Assembly: GCF_901538265.1 (NCBI RefSeq)
Contig: NZ_LR593886.1
Coordinates: 8,701,738-8,765,737 of the forward strand
Reading direction: 5' to 3'
Length of the DNA stretch: 64,000 bases
DNA from: Gemmata massiliana
Lineage (GTDB): Bacteria > Planctomycetota > Planctomycetia > Gemmatales > Gemmataceae
Shown here: positions 4,961-63,252 of the stretch, piece by piece
Numbering within the stretch: the first letter of the stretch is position 1
How the letters are laid out: each line of letters begins with the position of its first letter
Translations under genes and position numbers: made by a program
Notes under the pieces: model-generated
The model's database searches: none
Told to the model about the DNA's origin: nothing
Seen by the model: the letters and a program-made list of their open reading frames with translations, nothing else

Positions 4961-6358
4961 CTACGTTCGTGGAGTGCCGTCGCCTGCGCGAAAATTCGCC
5001 AGTACGCGCTCGATGAAGGGCCGGCTCACCGACCGGAACTTGTCAAAGGTCGTGCGGTTCACCGTGTACACCTCCACGCGGGTTAGCGCGCGGATGGTCG
5101 CGTTCCGTGGTTGATCCATGAGGAGTGCGACCTCGCCGAAGTACCTCCCGGCGCTCAGTTCGGCGAGCTTTTGCGTCGCCCCGTCCACCTCACGCAACAC
5201 CTCCACCGTTCCGCGTCGGATCAGGTAGAACTTACTGTCCGCGTTCACCGCGTCGCCCTGGCGCACGATCACCAGTCCCGATTCGTATACCTCGACACAG
5301 TCAGGCTTTGCGGCGATTTGGTCCGGGCGCACCGGGTCATTGGGATGAACGCCGATCAGGACCGAGTCGGCGATCTTCTCCTGCTCTTCGGGCAGGACCG
5401 CGGCGAACGCCGAGCTCTGGCGCAGGCCCTCCCGCACGAACAGGCGCTCCGCGACGACCACGTTCGACTCGATCCGGCCGCGTTCCATGTGAACGATACG
5501 GTCGGCCAAGTTCATAATGCGCGCGTCGTGCGTGACAATCAGGCTGGTAGTGCCGTGTTCGGTGGCGATTTTCTTGAGGAGCGGGATCTGCCACGCCCCC
5601 AGTCGCCCGTTCTCACCGGCTTCCGCGGGCGGGCGCACGAGCTTGCTGAGGTGTTCCTCGGACCGTTGGCGCGCGAGTTCCTGCACGAGCGTGACCACCG
5701 CGAGTCCGCTATTCGCATCAAGGGCAGCCGTTGGCTCGTCCGCGAGAACGAGTTTCGGCCGATTGATGAGCGCGCGGGCAATAGCGACGCGCTGCCGCTG
5801 ACCACCGGAGAGTTTCGCGGGCTTGTAGTCGAACCGCGATTTCTGTGCGCGCCCCTCCAGGTCTTTTTCGCCCAGGAGCAAGTACGTGAGCACGTCGCGT
5901 GCGTCCGCGTCGAGATCGGTGGCGCCAGTGTCCTTCAGACGCTGAGCCATGCGAATATTCTGCACCGCCGTGAGCGAATCAAACAGATTGTGGCGCTGAA
6001 AGATGAACCCGATGAGCCGACGAACGTGGACCAGTTCCGGTTCGGGCACGCCTTTCAAATTGCGGTAGTCGCCCAGGTCCGCGTCCCAAACTTCGATCTC
6101 GCCTTCCTGCAGTGTACGCAGCCCGCCGATGAGCGTGAGAATGGTCGTTTTGCCGGACCCGGACGGCCCGCTCATGATGACCAGTTCGCCCGGCATCACT
6201 TCGAGCGTGTTATCGAAGAGCACCTGCGTGCGCGTGTCGCCGGTACCGAAGTAGTGATTCACCCCGCGAATACGGAGCACCGGTTGACCGGGCGGGGGGG
6301 TAGGTTGCCTTTCCCCCCTGCCTTCAAGGGGGTTAGGTTCTTCCGCGCTAGAAGACAT
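4961..6358 (-). CDS. DevA-like ABC exporter ATPase fused to a cyclic-nucleotide-binding domain
   Basis: A 465-residue ATPase. Residues about 27-290 form an ABC domain of the MacB/LolD/DevA class: Walker A GPSGSGKTT at 64-72, Q-loop FIFQRHNLFD, signature LSGGQRQR, Walker B VLADEP, H-loop VTHD. Between the D-loop and the H-loop there is an extra stretch of about 25 residues (HLSKLVRPPAEAGENG...). The remaining C-terminus (about 330-460) is a cNMP-binding fold with the phosphate-binding-cassette signature FGEVALLMDQPRNATIRA. The start overlaps the upstream permease gene by 11 bases, so the two are coupled. It should energise the two FtsX-like permeases and be gated by a nucleotide ligand; the gating is inference. 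Residues about 5-23 (NPLEGRGERQPTPPPG) are encoded by a dispersed hairpin repeat. Confidence 0.85.
   Translation of the reverse strand: MSSSAEEPNPLEGRGERQPTPPPGQPVLRIRGVNHYFGTGDTRTQVLFDNTLEVMPGELVIMSGPSGSGKTTILTLIGGLRTLQEGEIEVWDADLGDYRNLKGVPEPELVHVRRLIGFIFQRHNLFDSLTAVQNIRMAQRLKDTGATDLDADARDVLTYLLLGEKDLEGRAQKSRFDYKPAKLSGGQRQRVAIARALINRPKLVLADEPTAALDANSGLAVVTLVQELARQRSEEHLSKLVRPPAEAGENGRLGAWQIPLLKKIATEHGTTSLIVTHDARIMNLADRIVHMERGRIESNVVVAERLFVREGLRQSSAFAAVLPEEQEKIADSVLIGVHPNDPVRPDQIAAKPDCVEVYESGLVIVRQGDAVNADSKFYLIRRGTVEVLREVDGATQKLAELSAGRYFGEVALLMDQPRNATIRALTRVEVYTVNRTTFDKFRSVSRPFIERVLANFRAGDGTPRT
6291..6344. repeat. C-rich palindromic repeat unit inside the N-terminus of the ABC ATPase gene
   Basis: The DNA reads G-run, TAGGTTGCC, TTTCCCCCCTGCCTTCAAGG, then GGGTTAGGTTCTTCC. 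It shares the CCTTCAAGGGGG hairpin core and the GGTAGGTT / TTAGGTTCTTC edges with the repeats at 10.2, 23.5 and 34.9 kb. It lies in frame and supplies roughly residues 5-23 of the protein. Confidence 0.65.
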
Positions 6359-7576: not shown

Positions 7577-7668
7577 GGCGAACGGTCGGTGTGCGCCGGC
7601 CGGTGAGAACGACGAAAGTACAGTCATTCGTGCAAATTGCACCGGCCGGCGCACACCGGCCGTTCGCC
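7577..7668. repeat. 29-bp inverted repeat between the two permease genes
   Basis: Arms 7577-7605 and 7640-7668 pair over 29 bases with one mismatch, separated by a 34-base loop. In the mRNA (minus strand) the stem begins at the TAG of the first permease and ends directly before the AGGA ribosome site of the second. It could slow read-through or modulate translation of the downstream gene. One arm is closely related to a single copy at 32830-32858. Confidence 0.85.
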
Positions 7669-9223: not shown

Positions 9224-10486
9224 TCACTTCCCATCGATCCACCGTGCGAACAGCTCTGCCTTCGCACTCCATCCTTCGTTCTTGAGACGCACGCGAGCAA
9301 CCAGTTGGCTCTCTGGCGTTCCGGTTGCCAGACGAACTAACACCGCTCGGGTGAACGCTTCCGGTGAGCCCACCACGTCAACGCAATCGGTCCATTCCGC
9401 GGTCGCGGGGAGGCGCCGAACCACGACTGGCTTGCCCGTCGCGATGTATTCCTTGAGCTTCAGCGGCTGCATGGCCCGCGTAACGGGGAGATCGGCGTAG
9501 GGTGCGATGAGTACGGACGCGCGAGCCGCCAGTGCCGGCAGATCCGCGAACGGGATCGGCGGAAGACTCCGCACGCGGGGTAACCGCAGCAGTTCCGGAT
9601 CGGGCGCGTCGTGCGGCCCCGCGAAGAGGATCGTCCCGGCGGTCATCGCTTCGCCGAGGTACTTGACGAAGGCGAGGTCCGTGCGGCGATCGATCACGCC
9701 CCAATACGCAACGAGCGGCTCGGGCATCGTGGCTAGTTCGCGCAGAGACGCAGGAACGCCACTTGGTTGAGGCGCGCGCCAGAAGTCGAGATCGACCCCG
9801 TGGGTGAGTAGACACGCGGACCTCCCCCATTGGGCGAGGTGCGCCTGGAGCGTTTCGCTTACCGCAATCGTGACGTCCATTTTCGGGACGAGTTCGGCTT
9901 CCATGTCGCGCATGGTGCGCCCGTCCAAGCCGGGCCACACGGAGAAATCGTCCACGCAGTAATAGACCCAGCGCGCGACCCGAAAGCGCCCGACGAGATC
10001 GGCGACGAGCGGTATCGTGGTGACGACCACCGGCGGTTCGGGCAAAGTGTCTGCGACCGACTTCAAGGCGCGCGTCAGGAGCCGCCGGTTCAGCCCGCGT
10101 GCGAACCGCGACCGAAACGACGGCCACATCTTGGGATTGAGAATGAGGGGAGAGGGGGGAGAACCTCCCCCCCCCGCCCCCCTCCCTGAAGGGAAGGGGG
10201 AGCTGGCGCGCGATTCCGCTGGGCTTGAGACTGCGTCGGTTGACAGTTCTTTCTCCCCCTTCCCTTCAGGGAGGGGGGCCGGGGGGGTAGGTTGCTTTAC
10301 CCACTGGCGCAGTTTGCCCATTCCGCGCGTGACGGTGCTCCAGTTCAACCCCGGCGGGCGCGTGCCGATCGTGTTCACCCAGACGACGCGGCGGTGCGGA
10401 AGCAGTTTCGAGATGAGGTGCTGACAGCTCGACGGGTGCCGGCCCCAGTCGTCGGAAAACACGATCAGCGGGGCGGGGTCAGGCAT
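9224..10486 (-). CDS. Glycosyltransferase (GT1/GT4-like) with a repeat-encoded insertion
   Basis: A 420-residue cytoplasmic glycosyltransferase. The N-terminal Rossmann half starts IVFSDDWGRHPSSCQHL, and the C-terminal nucleotide-sugar half has HGVDLDFWR and the GT-B style ending APYADLPVTRAMQPLKL, KEYIATGKPVVVR. Residues about 64-109 are a low-complexity insert (PLPEGKGEKEL... PFPSGRGAGGG) encoded by an inverted pair of C-rich repeats; the protein reads normally on both sides. The start overlaps the acyltransferase gene by 8 bases. It is the last gene of the four-gene polysaccharide operon. Donor and acceptor are unknown. Confidence 0.8.
   Translation of the reverse strand: MPDPAPLIVFSDDWGRHPSSCQHLISKLLPHRRVVWVNTIGTRPPGLNWSTVTRGMGKLRQWVKQPTPPAPLPEGKGEKELSTDAVSSPAESRASSPFPSGRGAGGGGSPPSPLILNPKMWPSFRSRFARGLNRRLLTRALKSVADTLPEPPVVVTTIPLVADLVGRFRVARWVYYCVDDFSVWPGLDGRTMRDMEAELVPKMDVTIAVSETLQAHLAQWGRSACLLTHGVDLDFWRAPQPSGVPASLRELATMPEPLVAYWGVIDRRTDLAFVKYLGEAMTAGTILFAGPHDAPDPELLRLPRVRSLPPIPFADLPALAARASVLIAPYADLPVTRAMQPLKLKEYIATGKPVVVRRLPATAEWTDCVDVVGSPEAFTRAVLVRLATGTPESQLVARVRLKNEGWSAKAELFARWIDGK
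10159..10294. repeat. Inverted pair of C-rich palindromic repeats inside the glycosyltransferase gene
   Basis: Unit one (about 10159-10204) runs from GAACCTCC through a C-run to CCCTGAAGGG and AAGGGGGAGC. Unit two (about 10250-10294) is its inverse: TCCCCCTTCCCTTCAGGGAG followed by a G-run and GTAGGTTG. Each unit is itself a hairpin around CCCTGAAGGG, and the pair is separated by about 45 bp. The insertion is a whole number of codons and free of stops. Confidence 0.85.
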
Positions 10487-23045: not shown

Positions 23046-24266
23046 TCACACGAAGAGCGCGGCTTCGGCTACCAGTCCCGGCCCGAAGCCGAGCGCGACA
23101 CACGGTCGCGGCGCCCCTTCCGCGCGCAACGTGCGCAGGATGAACAGCACGGTCGGACTGGACATGTTGCCGTATTCAGCAAAAACGCCCCTCGACGGGG
23201 CGAGTGCTTCGCCCGAAAGCCCGAGCGCCTCTCCCACCGCGCTCACGATCTTCGGCCCACCGGGGTGAACGGCCCAGCTCCGCACGTTCGCAAGTGACAG
23301 CCCGTTGTCACCGAGCCAAGATTCGATCCACGGTTTGAGGTGCGCCGCGATCAACCCCGGCACCCGGCGCGACAGCGACATCTCGAACCCGTGGTCACCG
23401 ACCACCCAGCCCATATCGGCCGCGGAATTCGGGATGAGACACGAACCGGACGCGACGAGGGACCAGGGGGGTAAGAACCCCTCCCCAACCCCTCCCCTAA
23501 ACGGAGAGGGGCTTAAAACCGTTGTGGATTGCGTTGTGCCTACGGTATTTGGTTCTGTTCCCCCTTCCTTCTTAGGGAAGGGGGCTAGGGGGGTAGGTTC
23601 TCCCCCCGCCCCCACCACGGCCGCGGCGCCGTCGGCGAAGATCGAGTTCGCGATCAGTTTGTCCGCGGCACTGCCGTAGTAGTAGTGCAGGCTGCTCAGT
23701 TCCACCGCACACACCAGCACGCGCGCGGACGGATCGGCACTCGCGAATGCGTTCGCCACGCGCAGCCCGTTCAGCGCGCCATGACACCCCATGAACCCGA
23801 CGTGCGTGCGTGCGACCGTCGGCTTGAGCCCCAACCCGGTAATCAGCGCGAAGTCTACGCCCGGCGCCACGAACCCGGTACACGATACGGTCACGAGGTG
23901 CGTGATCGTGTCGGGGGCGAACCCGCTCTCGGCCAGGGCGCTCGTCGAAGCACAGAGCGCGAGCGGCCCGGCCTCTTGTGCGTAGATCGCCATCCGCTCG
24001 CCGGTCGTCGGTCCAGTGCCCTCGTTGTCCGGCGTGGGAAGAAACGGCGACCCGCTGTCGTTCGTCCCGGCCAGTGCGTCGCGTTTGGCACTGCCGCCGA
24101 TGATCTGGAAGCGCTGCCGGAGGCCGTTGTTCGAGTAAATCGGCCCGAGCCACGTCGAGGTGCGCACGTCCGGCCCCGCGAGCACTCGCGCGAGCGCGAG
24201 CCCCTCCTCTGCGGTCACGGCGTCCGGCGGGTGCGCGGCGCCGATGCCGTGAATCGCGAAGCTCAT
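23046..24266 (-). CDS. Type III polyketide synthase (chalcone/stilbene synthase family)
   Basis: A 406-residue thiolase-fold enzyme. The catalytic triad is visible: Cys129 in TVSCTGFVAPG, His334 in WAVHPGGPK, Asn367 in EYGNMSSPT; the family signature GFGPGL closes the protein. It condenses malonyl-CoA units onto an acyl starter. Residues about 222-268 (EPTPLAPFPKKEGGTEP... GGVGEGFLPPW) are an extra low-complexity loop encoded by an inverted pair of palindromic repeats, which explains why the protein is longer than the usual 350-370. ATG 24266 forms an ATGA overlap with the oxidoreductase gene. It is last in the methyltransferase-oxidoreductase-synthase operon, an arrangement recalling Streptomyces srsABC (alkylresorcinol/quinone lipids). 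Confidence 0.9.
   Translation of the reverse strand: MSFAIHGIGAAHPPDAVTAEEGLALARVLAGPDVRTSTWLGPIYSNNGLRQRFQIIGGSAKRDALAGTNDSGSPFLPTPDNEGTGPTTGERMAIYAQEAGPLALCASTSALAESGFAPDTITHLVTVSCTGFVAPGVDFALITGLGLKPTVARTHVGFMGCHGALNGLRVANAFASADPSARVLVCAVELSSLHYYYGSAADKLIANSIFADGAAAVVGAGGEPTPLAPFPKKEGGTEPNTVGTTQSTTVLSPSPFRGGVGEGFLPPWSLVASGSCLIPNSAADMGWVVGDHGFEMSLSRRVPGLIAAHLKPWIESWLGDNGLSLANVRSWAVHPGGPKIVSAVGEALGLSGEALAPSRGVFAEYGNMSSPTVLFILRTLRAEGAPRPCVALGFGPGLVAEAALFV
23466..23606. repeat. Inverted pair of palindromic repeats inside the polyketide synthase gene
   Basis: Unit one (about 23466-23518) contains AAGAACCCCTCCCCAACCCC and a hairpin CCCCTAAACGGAGAGGGG. Unit two (about 23560-23606) is CCCCCTTCCTTCTTAGGGAA followed by GGGGGCTAGGGGGGTAGGTT. 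The pair is separated by about 40 bp and kept in frame. Unit two is nearly identical to a unit at 35045-35088. Confidence 0.85.
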
Positions 24267-25375
24267 AGGTGGGCACCGTGAGGGAGCGGGGCAGAAGACC
24301 GGTTGAGGGACCAGACGACCGGACGGGCGAGCACGGGGCACGCGGTCAGCGCGCGCACGACGGTTCCGGTGAGTGCGGGCGAGCGCAGCACACGCGAAAC
24401 GATCCGGCACACGCGCTGGCGCCCACCGATCACGCGGTGGTACGCGCGTTCCCACTCCCGGCCGAGCGAATCGCTCCAGTGGTGCACAGCACGTGCCGCG
24501 ATCGGCGCAACGGCCGCGGCGGATGCGACCGCCCAGGCCATCCCCTCACCGGTGAACGGCTCGACGTAACCCGCCGCGTCGCCGATCGCGAACCAGCGCT
24601 CACCGGCCAGTTTGTTGGCGCGCCGAGTGAGCGCCGGAGTTCCCTTCCAGGGGAGATCCGCAATTCCCGGTACGCACGGCCAACCGACTTCGTTCAAAAT
24701 GCTTTCTGCGGCGCACCCAAGCCCCCCGCGCGACTTCACGAACGCCACATCGAACGCCGCCGCGACATCGAGCCGCCCGTCCTCGACGCGCACCAGTCCG
24801 ACGTACCCCCCGCGCCCCGTCGCCATGAAGGTCGTGCCGGGTCTGAAGTGCGCGGGAACGAGGTCGGCGGGGACGATCACCCCCGCCCCGATACGTGAAC
24901 CGGCTTCCGGTGTCGCCTCGCGGCCCGCAAGCCCGGTGGCAACGATCACGACCTTCGCGCGAACCGGTTGCTCGTACTCCTGCACGGTGACTGTTGCGAA
25001 ATCCGGGCACGTGCTTTCAATTCTTGCGACCGCGCCCTCACGGAACTGCGCGCCGGCCTTCACCGCTTCCCGCACGAGCGTAAGGTCGAACGCTTCGCGC
25101 GACAGCGACACCCCGCCGGGCAACTTCACCGACGCCGAACGCGCCCCAGCTCCGATGGTCACGTTGTGAAGTGGAACGCCGCTCGCCACGGCGTGCCCGA
25201 GTCCGAGTCGCTTGAGGGTCGTGATGGCCGCGCCGTTAATGCAGCACCCACACACCTTCGGGCGCGGGAATCGCGCCTTGTCCACCAACAGAACCGAGTG
25301 CCCCCGGCGCGCCAGCTCGCGTGCGGCCACCGCGCCCGCGGGTCCGGCGCCGATGACCACCACATCGAGCGTCAT
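24263..25375 (-). CDS. FAD-dependent oxidoreductase (geranylgeranyl-reductase-like)
   Basis: A 370-residue flavoprotein from ATG 25375. The Rossmann motif VVIGAGPAGAVAARELARRG is at the N-terminus, followed by PRPKVCGCCING, a GGR-family cysteine-rich segment; GDAAGYVEPFTGEGMAWAV is the second FAD contact. ATGA overlaps join it to genes on both sides. In a polyketide operon it likely hydroxylates or reduces the released product, by analogy with SrsC or with geranylgeranyl reductases; which reaction is undetermined. Confidence 0.85.
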   Translation of the reverse strand: MTLDVVVIGAGPAGAVAARELARRGHSVLLVDKARFPRPKVCGCCINGAAITTLKRLGLGHAVASGVPLHNVTIGAGARSASVKLPGGVSLSREAFDLTLVREAVKAGAQFREGAVARIESTCPDFATVTVQEYEQPVRAKVVIVATGLAGREATPEAGSRIGAGVIVPADLVPAHFRPGTTFMATGRGGYVGLVRVEDGRLDVAAAFDVAFVKSRGGLGCAAESILNEVGWPCVPGIADLPWKGTPALTRRANKLAGERWFAIGDAAGYVEPFTGEGMAWAVASAAAVAPIAARAVHHWSDSLGREWERAYHRVIGGRQRVCRIVSRVLRSPALTGTVVRALTACPVLARPVVWSLNRSSAPLPHGAHL

Positions 25376-26088
25376 TCCCGGCTCCACGACAACAGAAAGC
25401 GCGAGGGAAACTTGCTGCGTGCGGTCGCACCGACAAGCCCCGCGCGCTCGGCGAGCGCGAGTGCTTCGGCGGGGGTGAACGCCGAGCGCACCGACGCGGG
25501 GCCGTCGAACCACACCACCCGCGACCCGGTGAGCACGCGACACGCGGCCCACACCGCACAGTAGTTGAACCGCGAGCGCAGCAAATCATTCACTAACACG
25601 AGTGCGCCCGCAGCGCTCTTCATGTTCGCGAGGAGCGTGATGGCGTCGTCTTCGCTCAAGTGGTGCAGAAAGAGCGAGCACGTGACGACATCGAAACCGT
25701 TCGGTAACGGGTCGCGTAGCGCGTCGTGAACGAAGAACCGGGCCGCGCTCGGGTGCCGCGAAGCTTCTTCGATCGCGGTCGGACTCACATCGCACCCGGC
25801 CACTTCGATCGAAACGCTCGCGCGTTCGGCCCGCGCGAGCAACTTGCGTGGAACGTCCCCGCTACCCGTCGCCACATCCAGCACGCGGACCGTGCGCTTG
25901 AGCCGTCCAGATAGGTTCGCGATTGCGGGCCACAGCACGCCCACACTGTTACTGAAGCGATTGAGCCGGACCAAGCCCGCGAGCGCGCGCCGGTGCTCGG
26001 TCGGGTCGATGGCGGGATCGTCCATCAATTCCGGGATGCGATCGCGCGTGTGCAAGCGGGACAAGAACACCGTCACGGCTCCGGACAT
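25372..26088 (-). CDS. Class I SAM-dependent methyltransferase
   Basis: A 238-residue methyltransferase, read from ATG 26088. Motif I is VLDVATGSGDVPRKLL, the acidic motif II is VAGCDVSPTAIEEA, and motif III/IV is FDVVTCSLFLHHL. It resembles the small-molecule O- or C-methyltransferases accompanying bacterial type III polyketide synthases. First gene of the three-gene operon; its stop overlaps the oxidoreductase start (ATGA). Likely substrate is the phenolic or pyrone product; this is inferred only from context. Confidence 0.82.
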   Translation of the reverse strand: MSGAVTVFLSRLHTRDRIPELMDDPAIDPTEHRRALAGLVRLNRFSNSVGVLWPAIANLSGRLKRTVRVLDVATGSGDVPRKLLARAERASVSIEVAGCDVSPTAIEEASRHPSAARFFVHDALRDPLPNGFDVVTCSLFLHHLSEDDAITLLANMKSAAGALVLVNDLLRSRFNYCAVWAACRVLTGSRVVWFDGPASVRSAFTPAEALALAERAGLVGATARSKFPSRFLLSWSRE

Positions 26089-26136: not shown

Positions 26137-26205
26137 CCACCCGCTCGTTAACACTCGCGGTTCGCCTTAGCGCTTGGCGAACCGCGAGTGTTAACGAGCG
26201 GGTGG
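26137..26205. repeat. Perfect 30-bp inverted repeat between operons
   Basis: Arms 26137-26166 and 26176-26205 are perfectly complementary over 30 bases with a 9-base loop (TTAGCGCTT). The stem begins CCACCCGCTCGTTAACACTC. It lies between the 3' end of the trehalase gene and the 5' end of the methyltransferase gene, both on the minus strand, so it may terminate the trehalase transcript. There is no T-run after it. Confidence 0.9.
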
Positions 26206-29741: not shown

Positions 29742-29776
29742 GAGAATCTCCCGCGTCGAGTTCTATCCGCGTTCGT

Positions 29777-29909
29777 GTAGGTCGGGCTGTGCCCGACGTC
29801 TGCGACTGAAAACCGCGTCGGGCGCGGCTCAGCCAAAGCGCCTTTGGTCTTCGTAGCGCCCGACATCTACGGAATCCCTATAAGCTGTGTCGGGCACAGC
29901 CCGACCTAC
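29777..29909. repeat. Nested palindromic element upstream of glgX
   Basis: Outer arms 29777-29797 and 29889-29909 (GTAGGTCGGGCTGTGCCCGA...) match perfectly over 21 bases. Each arm is itself a small hairpin (TCGGGCTGTGCCCGA), and an inner pair (GTCGGGCGC / GCGCCCGAC) lies between. The element occupies most of the gap between glgX and the following membrane-protein gene. Confidence 0.85.
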
Positions 29910-30121
29910 TCGACGTTGCTACACGACCACAGTTCTGCATCCGGGAGCTGGAAAATCTCCCGCGTCGAATGTCGCTCCCGGCGCGTGCAATAAGCGAATT
30001 CGGTACCAGTAATCCGGCAATTCCGCTCCAGTCGATGGCACGGGTCGTGCAGAGCTTTCGGGCGACCACATGGTCACAGACTGCCCTCGTCACTCCTACC
30101 TTACACACCCAAGAAGGTCAC

Positions 30122-32595: not shown

Positions 32596-32829
32596 CAGGC
32601 TATTCCCACACAATCCGTGAGCAGCGACCTATGGATTTGATGCGCACGCGACTCGTTTTCGGAGAAATCGGGAGAAAATGGCTAACAGTGTTAGCCCGTT
32701 AATAGCGGCGAATCTCAATTTCCTCAGCGAAAACGCGAATCGGGCACCGTCCGGCCCAAAGTGTTAGCAATTGTTAGCCGTGCGAGGCGAGGGGCACAAA
32801 CCCACTCGTTGGTACTCGCGATTCACCTT

Positions 32830-32858
32830 GGCGAACGGCCGGGGTGAGCCGGCCGGTG
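32830..32858. repeat. Single copy of the 29-base element seen at 7577-7668
   Basis: The sequence GGCGAACGGCCGGGGTGAGC through GGCCGGTG matches the arm at 7640-7668 (read on the other strand) at about 26 of 29 positions. Here the element is single and non-coding. The rest of the 32513-33027 gap holds no supported gene. Confidence 0.6.
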
Positions 32859-33027
32859 AAAAGGCTCCGAGCCTGAGCAATTGGCACGGCACGATGCCTC
32901 AAGTCCGGAAGACTCGTTACGACGCATTGGTCCGTCACGAGAACACCCAAATGTCGCGTGCATTTGTTGTTCGGTCGACTGGCGCGGAGTCACAGCGCGA
33001 GCTATTCTTCCCCGATGGGGGAAGTGT

Positions 33028-33949: not shown

Positions 33950-34891
33950 CTATTTCTTCCGCCACACTTGGTCGGTGGTAAGTCCGAGTTTCGCCATCGT
34001 GGGCTGAATCTGAGCAAAGAACCGCTTCGCATCGACCGGGTAGCCGGCCGTGGGCGCGATACCGGGAACGTGGGTGGCCCAAAAACGGTTGAACTGCTTC
34101 ATACAGACTTCACGGAGATACTTGCACAGCATCGACGCGAGTGCCACGGCCACGCTGTCACCATCGGCACGTGGACGGAACGTGATCGAAATATCACGCG
34201 ACAGGTGCTCGATGCGGTACCGGCTCTCTTCGGCCGATTCGCGCTCGGCGACCACCCACCCGTCCGGGAACGCCTCTTGCAACAGGCCCGCGTAGAAGTT
34301 CCGTCCGCCCTGTTTATCGCACGCGAACACGAGCGGCCGGCCATCGGCCGGCACCGTGGCCGTCAGCGCGGCGAGCAATTCGATCAGCCCGCGGCCGAGA
34401 ATCGTGCCCTTGGACCCATACTCGTCCACCATGCGGTTGAACCGCGGCGCCGGTACGAGGTGGTAGTCGCCGCACCACTGGTTGTTGATCGCGGCCCGGA
34501 CCGGTTCGGATGCGTCCCACTCGGCGCCGGGATCGATGTGCAGCGGAACTGTTGCGGCTCCATCGAACCACGATTCCGCCAAAAGCTCCGCGCCCCACGC
34601 GGGCACGTCGCCGCTGCTCCAGAGGAACTCGTGGAGCGTGTGCGAATCGGGCGTCGCGATCGCCCACACGCCGCGTTCGAGCGCTTCGATTCCGCCGCGC
34701 GTGTAGACCTTCTTCGAGTCGTCGATAAGGAGCCGGCCGTCGGCCTTCTCGTGCGCGCGCCGAACCACGGGTTTCAGCGTGTCCCACCCCGCGGAGTCGC
34801 CCTCGGGCAAATTCAGCGCGATCGCGGCCTGTACCAGCGGACCGAGGTTCGGCCCGTAGCCTGCTTCATCGATCCCGACCACCCAGGGCAT
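33950..34891 (-). CDS. Divergent ribonuclease HII-like protein
   Basis: A 313-residue protein whose N-terminus WVVGIDEAGYGPNLGPLV carries the RNase HII active-site motif (D8, E9; usual form DEAGRGP). Further conserved-looking features are LLIDDSKKVY (DSKK motif), VFACDKQGGRNFY (D192) and RADGDSVAVALASMLCKYLRE (D243/D245), matching the acidic positions of the type II RNase H fold. It is longer than canonical RNase HII (about 200) because of a central insertion at about 95-170. It probably cleaves RNA in RNA-DNA hybrids, but Arg of the GRG motif is replaced by Tyr, which could alter junction specificity. Confidence 0.65.
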   Translation of the reverse strand: MPWVVGIDEAGYGPNLGPLVQAAIALNLPEGDSAGWDTLKPVVRRAHEKADGRLLIDDSKKVYTRGGIEALERGVWAIATPDSHTLHEFLWSSGDVPAWGAELLAESWFDGAATVPLHIDPGAEWDASEPVRAAINNQWCGDYHLVPAPRFNRMVDEYGSKGTILGRGLIELLAALTATVPADGRPLVFACDKQGGRNFYAGLLQEAFPDGWVVAERESAEESRYRIEHLSRDISITFRPRADGDSVAVALASMLCKYLREVCMKQFNRFWATHVPGIAPTAGYPVDAKRFFAQIQPTMAKLGLTTDQVWRKK

Positions 34892-34904
34892 ATGTTCGCT
34901 CCGA

Positions 34905-35091
34905 AGAACCTACCCCCCGGCCCCCTCCCTGAAGGGAAGGGGAGCAGCCCTTCAGAGCCAACTGGCGCGGGGTTAATTATCAGTGACTTCGCACCTGTTC
35001 CCCTTCCCTTCAGGGAGGGGGCTGGGGGGTAGGTCGTCTTTTTGCTCCCCCTTCCTTCTTAGGGAAGGGGGCTGGGGGGTTAGGTTCTTCG
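34905..35091. repeat. Intergenic array of three C-rich palindromic units
   Basis: Three hairpin units occupy almost the whole gap between the RNase H-like and HIT genes. Unit one (about 34905-34947) runs AACCTACCCCCC... CCCTGAAGGGAAGGGG. Unit two (about 35000-35034) is its inverse, CCCTTCCCTTCAGGG then a G-run and GTAGG. Unit three (about 35045-35088) is TCCCCCTTCCTTCTTAGGG... GGGGTTAGGTTC, close to the polyketide synthase copy. Confidence 0.9.
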
Positions 35092-35130
35092 CGCGTATGG
35101 TAACGGCATTCCCCGATTGGAGGAACCGAC

Positions 35131-35475
35131 GTGTTCGCCGACAACCTCTTCCTGAAGATCATCGATAAGACGATCCCCGCGAAGATCGCCTACGAAGACG
35201 ACCAGTGCCTCGCGTTCCACGACATCAAACCGCAGGCGCCGGTCCACGTGCTCATCATCCCCAAAAAGGTGATCCGCACGCACGACGACGCCACATCCGC
35301 GGACCAGGCGCTGCTCGGGCACCTGCACCTCGTCGCGATCAAGTTGGCGAAGGAACTCGGTCTGGCGAACGGGTACCGGCTCGTCATTAACTGCAACGAG
35401 GCCGGCGGACAAACGGTACCGCACCTCCACGTCCACCTGCTCGGTGGGCGCGACCTGACTTGGCCCCCCGGTTGA
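35131..35475 (+). CDS. HIT-family (HinT-like) nucleotide-binding hydrolase
   Basis: A 114-residue protein, the usual HinT length. The histidine triad HLHVHLL (H98, H100, H102; the middle His is the nucleophile) and the start FADNLFLKIIDKTIPAKIAYEDD are diagnostic. It hydrolyses AMP-lysine or phosphoramidate-type nucleotides in the cytoplasm. The stop is separated by 2 bases from the next ATG, so it is translated with the PLP-binding gene. Confidence 0.95.
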   Translation: MFADNLFLKIIDKTIPAKIAYEDDQCLAFHDIKPQAPVHVLIIPKKVIRTHDDATSADQALLGHLHLVAIKLAKELGLANGYRLVINCNEAGGQTVPHLHVHLLGGRDLTWPPG

Positions 35476-63044: not shown

Positions 63045-63093
63045 TGATTGGCGCTGTGCCGGACACGCGGCTTCATACGATCTTGTTTTGATT

Positions 63094-63175
63094 GTCTTCT
63101 GTAGCCGGCCTCTGCGAGGCCGGGCGGCCACCGACAGTGGATCTCCCGGCCTCGCAGAGGCCGGCTACAGAAGAC
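63094..63175. repeat. Perfect 31-bp inverted repeat between the paired genes
   Basis: Arms 63094-63124 (GTCTTCTGTAGCCGGCCTCT...) and 63145-63175 are perfectly complementary over 31 bases with a 20-base loop. It lies in the 208-bp gap between the DUF1549/DUF1553 and DUF1501 genes, which share direction. It could attenuate transcription between the two or be a mobile palindrome. Confidence 0.92.
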
Positions 63176-63252
63176 AGTAATCAACACGATTCGGGATCAC
63201 TCTGCGATTTACCACCTGCCGACCCTCTGGGGCCGAAGACCAAGGCGCTGCC

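Follow-up and report, generated by a model that had tools for sequence, protein, structure and literature searches.

We analysed a window of 64,000 nucleotides from the Gemmata massiliana chromosome, in which the span under study, at 34.9 kb, consists of an inverted doublet of type A hairpin units with a single type B unit beside it (Table 1). This copy is intergenic and lies between the divergent RNase HII and HIT genes, that is, between two divergent start codons. The two arms of the type A doublet are 95% complementary, and as single-stranded DNA the doublet folds into a single long hairpin (z -9.85; 0/200 shuffles as good). Likewise, the doublet at 10.2 kb folds into a single long hairpin (z -9.19; 0/200 shuffles as good). 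An Rfam search of positions 34700-35200 returned nothing near gathering scores, and a known RNA family was dropped on that ground as the identity of the 34.9-kb element.

The initial annotation had placed C-rich hairpin units at four places in the window. We confirmed those at 10.2, 23.5 and 34.9 kb, which are oppositely oriented and separated by the distances given in Table 1, and found that three related unit types (A, B and C) are mixed among these copies. The unit at 6.3 kb is a remnant with edges on one strand and lies in the 5'-terminal part of an ABC transporter ORF. The core first given for the family, CCCT-NNN-AGGG (CCCTNNNAGGG), matches just three other places, at 2572, 24642 and 39153; the true cores are CCCT-TC-AGGG for type A and CCTTC-TT-AGGG for type B. 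The 10.2-kb doublet is read through in frame by a glycosyltransferase-like ORF, whose Glyco_trans_1_4 score of 26.5 bits is just below the cut-off of 27, and the 23.5-kb doublet lies in frame within a type III polyketide synthase gene.

Table 1. Hairpin units of the window and the genes around them
Feature	Coordinates	Strand	Details
Degenerate remnant	6290..6340	+	two same-strand G-rich edges (GGGGTAGGTT, GGGGTTAGGTT); no inverted pair
Glycosyltransferase-like host of the 10.2-kb insert	9224..10486	-	Glyco_trans_1_4; PTPPAPLPEGKGE...SPFPSGRGAGGGG
Type A doublet	10162..10293	.	arms 10162-10202 and 10253-10293, 50 nt apart
Type III polyketide synthase, host of the 23.5-kb C-B doublet	23046..24455	-	solved homologue 1ted
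C-B doublet	23476..23600	.	C unit 23476-23511, B unit 23560-23600, about 48 nt apart
RNase HII gene, neighbour of the 34.9-kb element	33950..34891	-	RNase_HII match
Type A inverted doublet	34908..35034	.	arms 34908-34947 and 34995-35034, 47 nt between
Lone type B unit	35045..35087	+	3' part of the span under study, beside the A doublet
HIT-domain protein gene, neighbour of the 34.9-kb element	35131..35475	+	HIT match

The type A core, CCCTTCAGGG, lies within CCCCTTCCCTTCAGGGAGGGGG; further out come roughly two variable bases, then a run of G and [T/G]AGGTT. A doublet is formed by two inverted imperfect hairpins around a variable interior, giving a cassette of about 130 bp. Across the host genome, a single contig of 10,135,216 bases (a 10.1-Mb chromosome), we observed 74 copies of the exact type A core (CCCTTCAGGGANGGGG) at 50 sites and none of a reversed-pattern control. 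These sites comprise 21 '-+' doublets, no '+-' doublet, 27 single exact cores, one '--' and one '-++'; with looser matching, many of the single exact cores gain a partner or neighbouring units. The copy number exceeds the roughly 20 that the initial annotation had set as a minimum, and the pair spacing, which it had expected to be conserved, is 84 bp in 10 of the 21 doublets and 84-90 bp in 19. Units also recur in mosaics with fixed linkers, in which A-A+ is followed by C+ at 59 bp, and C+ by B+ at about 70 bp. The two arms of one copy are more alike than arms of different copies (mean distance 4.8 vs 5.7 over 28 doublets), with 2 of 20000 permutations as low as the observed value. Chance low-complexity matches were ruled out, since the reversed control is absent from this genome and from every congener and family member searched; its single match is in one genome of another family (G051).

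We next consider where the copies lie. We searched all 50 sites for frames without a stop over the element and 300 bp on either side, and took the coding phase of the flanks from third-position substitutions relative to a sister genome, G009, which is 88-95% identical to the window in aligned pieces. At 28 sites there is a spanning ORF in which third positions hold most substitutions on both flanks. This figure counts sites but does not test whether inserts survive in frame, because spanning ORFs were selected for openness, and in a coding-dense genome random insertions would mostly land within genes. Seven further spanning ORFs failed validation (one had no G009 match), and 15 of the 50 sites have no spanning ORF. 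The 10.2-kb doublet is left out of the 28 because its ORF begins less than 300 bp away. All 28 validated sites are read in the frame of PTPPSPLPEGKGE...SPFPSGRGDGGVG, as judged by the presence of PEGKGE or FPSGRG, one mismatch being tolerated.

The inserts can be seen against solved homologues of three hosts. For the type III polyketide synthase, residues 149-285 and 336-468 align to 100-237 and 252-388 of 1ted, with 50 residues where 1ted has 14. The alignments of RarA and ThiL are interrupted at A doublets: RarA residues 24-242 and 302-493 align to 13-230 and 243-437 of 3pvs (59 residues vs 12), and ThiL residues 24-96 and 159-345 align to 26-98 and 110-301 of 5cc8 (62 vs 11). A Pfam scan covered 20 of the 28 host proteins, two of which have no family. 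A single Pfam match extends across the insert in a P-type ATPase (Hydrolase), a penicillin amidase, an AMP-binding protein, an SMC hinge and a glycosyltransferase 4-4, and the insert falls between or beside Pfam matches in a TilS-like protein, KdtA, a RecD2-like helicase, a tRNA nucleotidyltransferase, CobW, an M16 protein and an amine oxidase. We conclude with considerable confidence that this is a family of in-frame inserts. The main property of the elements, namely that over half of the copies are in frame within ORFs, including those at 10.2 and 23.5 kb, had escaped the initial annotation.

The reading frame of the cassette has a further peculiarity. In the copy at 446439, each strand has only a single phase, out of three, that stays open over the full length, and the two strands encode a near-identical peptide, EPTPPSPLPEGKGE-(interior)-SPFPSGRGDGGVG, because the element is a palindrome. 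Over the 21 doublets, the number of open frames among the six is two in 13, three in 5, one in 2 and four in 1. The spacing is divisible by 3 in 18 of the 21 doublets of this genome, in 8 of 9 in G009 and in 6 of 8 among those listed for G002; the p value of 1.1e-6 for 18/21 assumes independent copies, which these are not. On one strand all 18 divisible doublets are open over their whole length, on the other 17 are, and nine of the 18 are validated in-gene copies. Their variable interior is stop-free on both strands in 18/18 cases, vs 5.5 expected from shuffled interiors, an expectation that is somewhat too low as the phase was chosen after being seen open, and a contrast that kinship among copies also overstates.

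A palindrome with the same frame open on both strands could be read through in either orientation if inserted in the right phase; such an insertion would add about 45 Pro/Gly-rich residues without stopping translation. One frame can stay open across both hairpins only if their distance is a multiple of 3, which would explain the steps of 84, 87 and 90 bp. The three exceptions, at 55, 85 and 88 bp, have no spanning ORF, and the 85-bp doublet is the intergenic copy at 34.9 kb; four divisible doublets (1936063, 3487821, 8711915 and 10109464) also have no spanning ORF under the ±300 bp rule. Selection would purge frame-breaking copies within genes and tolerate them outside, as with the 55-, 85- and 88-bp doublets, and we consider selection on frame a fairly likely cause of the conserved spacing.

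Comparison with the sister genome shows that sites are largely kept and that their contents often differ. Orthologs in G009 were found for 48 of the 50 sites, and 46 of these hold a C-rich unit under loose matching. When sites are located by their flanks alone, 27 of 29 hold such a unit; the other 19 were reached for the most part via units of G009 itself, a route that favours sites with units. The block at 8.90-9.10 Mb is collinear with G009 only piecewise, so that few unselected sites come from it. Unit order is identical at 13 of the 48 orthologous sites. At 8711915 and 10109464 an A doublet here corresponds to a C-B doublet in G009, which also carries a C-B doublet at the 10.2-kb site and another where the window has the 6.3-kb remnant. 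Ten sites have a normally spaced A doublet in each of the two genomes; interior identity is at least 80% in five of them and at most 62% in five, and at 850999 and 6392877 G009 holds unrelated palindromes. At 34.9 kb, a complete C-B doublet is present in G009 and G012 vs A plus B here, and the locus has no such element in eight congeners (G001, G005, G007, G008, G011, G013, G014 and G017). Against the in-frame reading, only thirteen of the 28 host genes keep their length modulo 3 in G009 and nine are fully open; G009 is a draft with N runs in 6 of the 28 host segments and 8 of the 48 orthologous segments, in which homopolymer errors are likely but unproven, and draft quality may or may not account for the broken host frames.

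The initial annotation had held that identical positions in relatives would speak against a mobile family. Positions are indeed largely common with G009, but content often differs and the eight congeners are empty at 34.9 kb. Its description of the family as active or recently active is not borne out, as a search for related empty sites with exact ends gave no clean insertion and no target duplication. The occupant of an old site (an A doublet, a C-B doublet or another interior) may be swapped by recombination or gene conversion between copies, together with nested insertion and deletion, while the flanks stay.

Of 18 congeners, 11 have the exact core; none of 18 genomes from the family's other genera has it, and a genome of another family has it once. 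In one congener, a region of about 40 kb (L067 and L068, G002:C1:1396500-1442500) carries nested symmetric arrays of A units (---+++, in steps of about 84 bp); five of six ORFs scanned with Pfam in its unit-dense part, L067, have no family, and one is primase/helicase-like (DUF5906, D5_N).

Farther afield, an exact 22-mer occurs in at least 120 stretches of genome contigs. Among the 80 matches listed, 23 are by title from Chloroflexota, one from Bacteroidales, one from Desulfobacterales and the rest from Planctomycetota. The outer edge GGGGTAGGT is present on 26 of 28 units in the 25 non-Planctomycetota loci and on 26 of 26 Chloroflexota units among the matches listed, and many of the Chloroflexota loci have 46-53% GC. 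Core plus edge was found in 4 of 301 Chloroflexota genomes, three of them already known carriers, with no match of the reversed control. C-B-like doublets, reached through short matches, occur in plasmids of Calothrix, Nostoc and Allocoleopsis. The cross-phylum units would descend by transfer, and convergence of C-rich palindromes is possible for the cyanobacterial look-alikes. No viral contig contains the 22-mer, and phage carriage was rejected accordingly; plasmid carriage of the 34.9-kb A doublet was likewise rejected, as this doublet has no plasmid match.

In anatomy these elements resemble REPINs, which are described by Bertels and Rainey 2011 (PMC3116915) as inverted imperfect palindromes at a conserved distance, with a variable interior, compensating arm changes and a long hairpin. 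The Gemmata units share with them a palindrome of 20-50 nt in inverted doublets that form a hairpin. REPs are defined by a GTAG-type tetranucleotide 5' of the palindrome (PMC8266576), whereas the TAGG or GAGG of the Gemmata unit is 3' of it, with about two bases and the G run between. REPINs are also mostly extragenic, in contrast to the 28 of 50 Gemmata sites validated within ORFs, and the Gemmata unit differs again in occurring in another phylum. The REPIN-like doublet anatomy and genome-wide dispersal first proposed hold; no RAYT was found in this genome, and the 5' GTAG and the mainly extragenic location of REPINs are lacking.

That the elements are true REPINs, copied by a RAYT since lost from this strain, is improbable. 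Some Y1_Tnp match is present in all 11 unit-carrying congeners; four congener Y1 proteins that we tested fit the IS200/IS605 model, two above cut-off, and the RAYT model NF047646 scores above cut-off in 10 of 19 genus genomes. However, the latter comprise 6 of the 12 genomes with units and 4 of the 7 without, so that RAYT presence is unrelated to units. The G. massiliana genome itself gave no match to Y1_Tnp (a control detected in 5 of 14 known genomes), to congener Y1 proteins by alignment (run without a positive control) or to NF047646, and no Y1 gene was found in the unit-carrying G059, G060, G061 and G064, which are MAGs and may be incomplete. Units lie near 0 of 18 and 0 of 27 Y1 loci, some of them from unit-free genomes, and near 1 of 30 RAYT-model loci, a sample partly from genomes without units, vs 20 of 400 random windows in each of two blocks. 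Several of eight examined congener Y1 loci are flanked by other hairpins. No cognate RAYT or TnpA_REP flanked by the Gemmata unit was found in this genome or its relatives. A RAYT origin was therefore rejected, there being no RAYT match in this genome, no tracking of units by RAYT presence and no enrichment of units at RAYT loci. The REP-associated transposase invoked by the initial annotation is accordingly unsupported, and its proposed search for a TnpA_REP-like Y1 gene flanked by the unit met with no Y1 gene in this genome.

Other explanations dispense with a RAYT. The doublets have the terminal inverted repeats of MITEs, and their size of 130 bp, their dispersal and their sparse presence in another phylum would fit a non-autonomous derivative of a DDE-type insertion sequence with ends AACCTACC...GGTAGGTT; this is rather doubtful, as no target duplication was seen and no insertion sequence with matching ends was found among the few scanned ORFs lying between units. 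The three ORFs between inverted units that were scanned for autonomous copies are one without a family, one AstE/AspA and one weak esterase. Old, vertically inherited inserts that are immobile now and turn over entirely by recombination between copies are somewhat unlikely: one ancient landing followed by conversion would yield shared sites with differing types, as seen in the C-rich units, often of another type, held by both sister genomes, but the exact core is missing in 7 of 18 congeners, the 34.9-kb locus is empty in eight, and the copies outside the phylum point to some horizontal movement. If selection had placed the units as regulatory RNA hairpins or terminators, the strong folds and the position of the 34.9-kb copy between start codons would be accounted for, yet more than half of the copies are in coding frames and the Rfam search gave no support, which makes this reading highly improbable.

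We probably have here palindromic cassettes of about 130 bp with the anatomy of REPINs, present mainly as in-frame gene inserts in the manner of Rickettsia palindromic elements. The latter (Ogata 2000, 2002) are palindromes of about 100-150 bp in several families, found in frame in unrelated genes (PMC10969869, PMC3733652). The Gemmata inserts likewise lie in frame in many unrelated genes with a conserved peptide; the likeness is one of behaviour rather than of compared sequences, and G009 keeps the frame in a minority of hosts. They differ in belonging to another phylum, in being GC-rich, and in their two-hairpin doublet, mosaic linkers and single frame open on both strands. Intragenic dimers are also shared with the GTAG/CGTC REPs described by Di Nocera 2013 (PMC3733652), for example in Opitutus terrae, which are palindrome dimers within ORFs, many of them replication or repair genes; the Gemmata tag is on the opposite side of the palindrome. 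The same paper describes recB genes of two Xanthomonas species in which roughly one and the same site holds different REPs, and its main text does not mention Gemmata. Joined by fixed linkers into recurring mosaics, the Gemmata units recall BIMEs, but they are not REP/PU (enterobacterial REP) sequences and their mosaics lie within ORFs. We found no description of these Gemmata repeats among the titles and abstracts of open-licence PMC literature.

How such cassettes spread can be proposed only tentatively: they may be moved by some enzyme that is not of the Y1 type, and exchanged by recombination or conversion and by nested insertion and deletion. It is also conceivable, if more speculative, that Planctomycetota and Chloroflexota have in common a cassette family that spreads free of RAYTs, keeps one frame open on both strands and is swapped at old docking sites in core protein genes; to this would belong the look-alike C-B doublets of cyanobacterial plasmids and the decorated proteins RarA, ThiL and type III polyketide synthase.

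Protein-coding palindromes are best known from Rickettsia, which have small genomes. Gemmata offers a large genome with dozens of copies, a sister with other occupants and hosts with solved structures, and the translation, tolerance and frame selection of the inserts thereby become directly testable; the common insert peptide EPTPPSPLPEGK is a predicted tryptic peptide. From REPIN-like anatomy alone, one should infer neither that a RAYT is present nor that the element lies outside genes.

Other palindromes occur in and around these elements. A further hairpin with the loop GCGAGAAGCTCCGCTGACA has seven exact-pattern copies in the genome (L210-L216, at 477021, 2339729, 5143364, 6392977, 7610934, 7659880 and 8282467), all nested in the hairpin tips of A (one), B (five) or C (one) units. 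A perfect 30-nt inverted repeat, CCACCCGCTCGTTAACACTCGCGGTTCGCC, lies at 26137-26205 of the window, and its reverse complement is also in the interior of the A doublet at 1328493. The palindrome at 7577-7668 of the window is repeated at 32829-32862 (GGCGAACGG[TC]CGG...), and that at 63093-63176 contains GTAG (TGTAGCCGGCCTCTGCGAGGCCGG on one strand). At about 29759-29951 another palindrome family shows a clean case of presence against absence: the window carries some 191 bp with GTAG-tagged hairpins that G009 lacks, flanked by direct repeats of about 15-18 bp (AATCTCCCGCGTCGA), and G009 has a single copy of that repeat. At 25366-25379 the window has almost nothing where G009 has a palindromic element with about 126 extra bp, and at about 37149 the window and G009 hold hairpins that differ in length and content at the same site.
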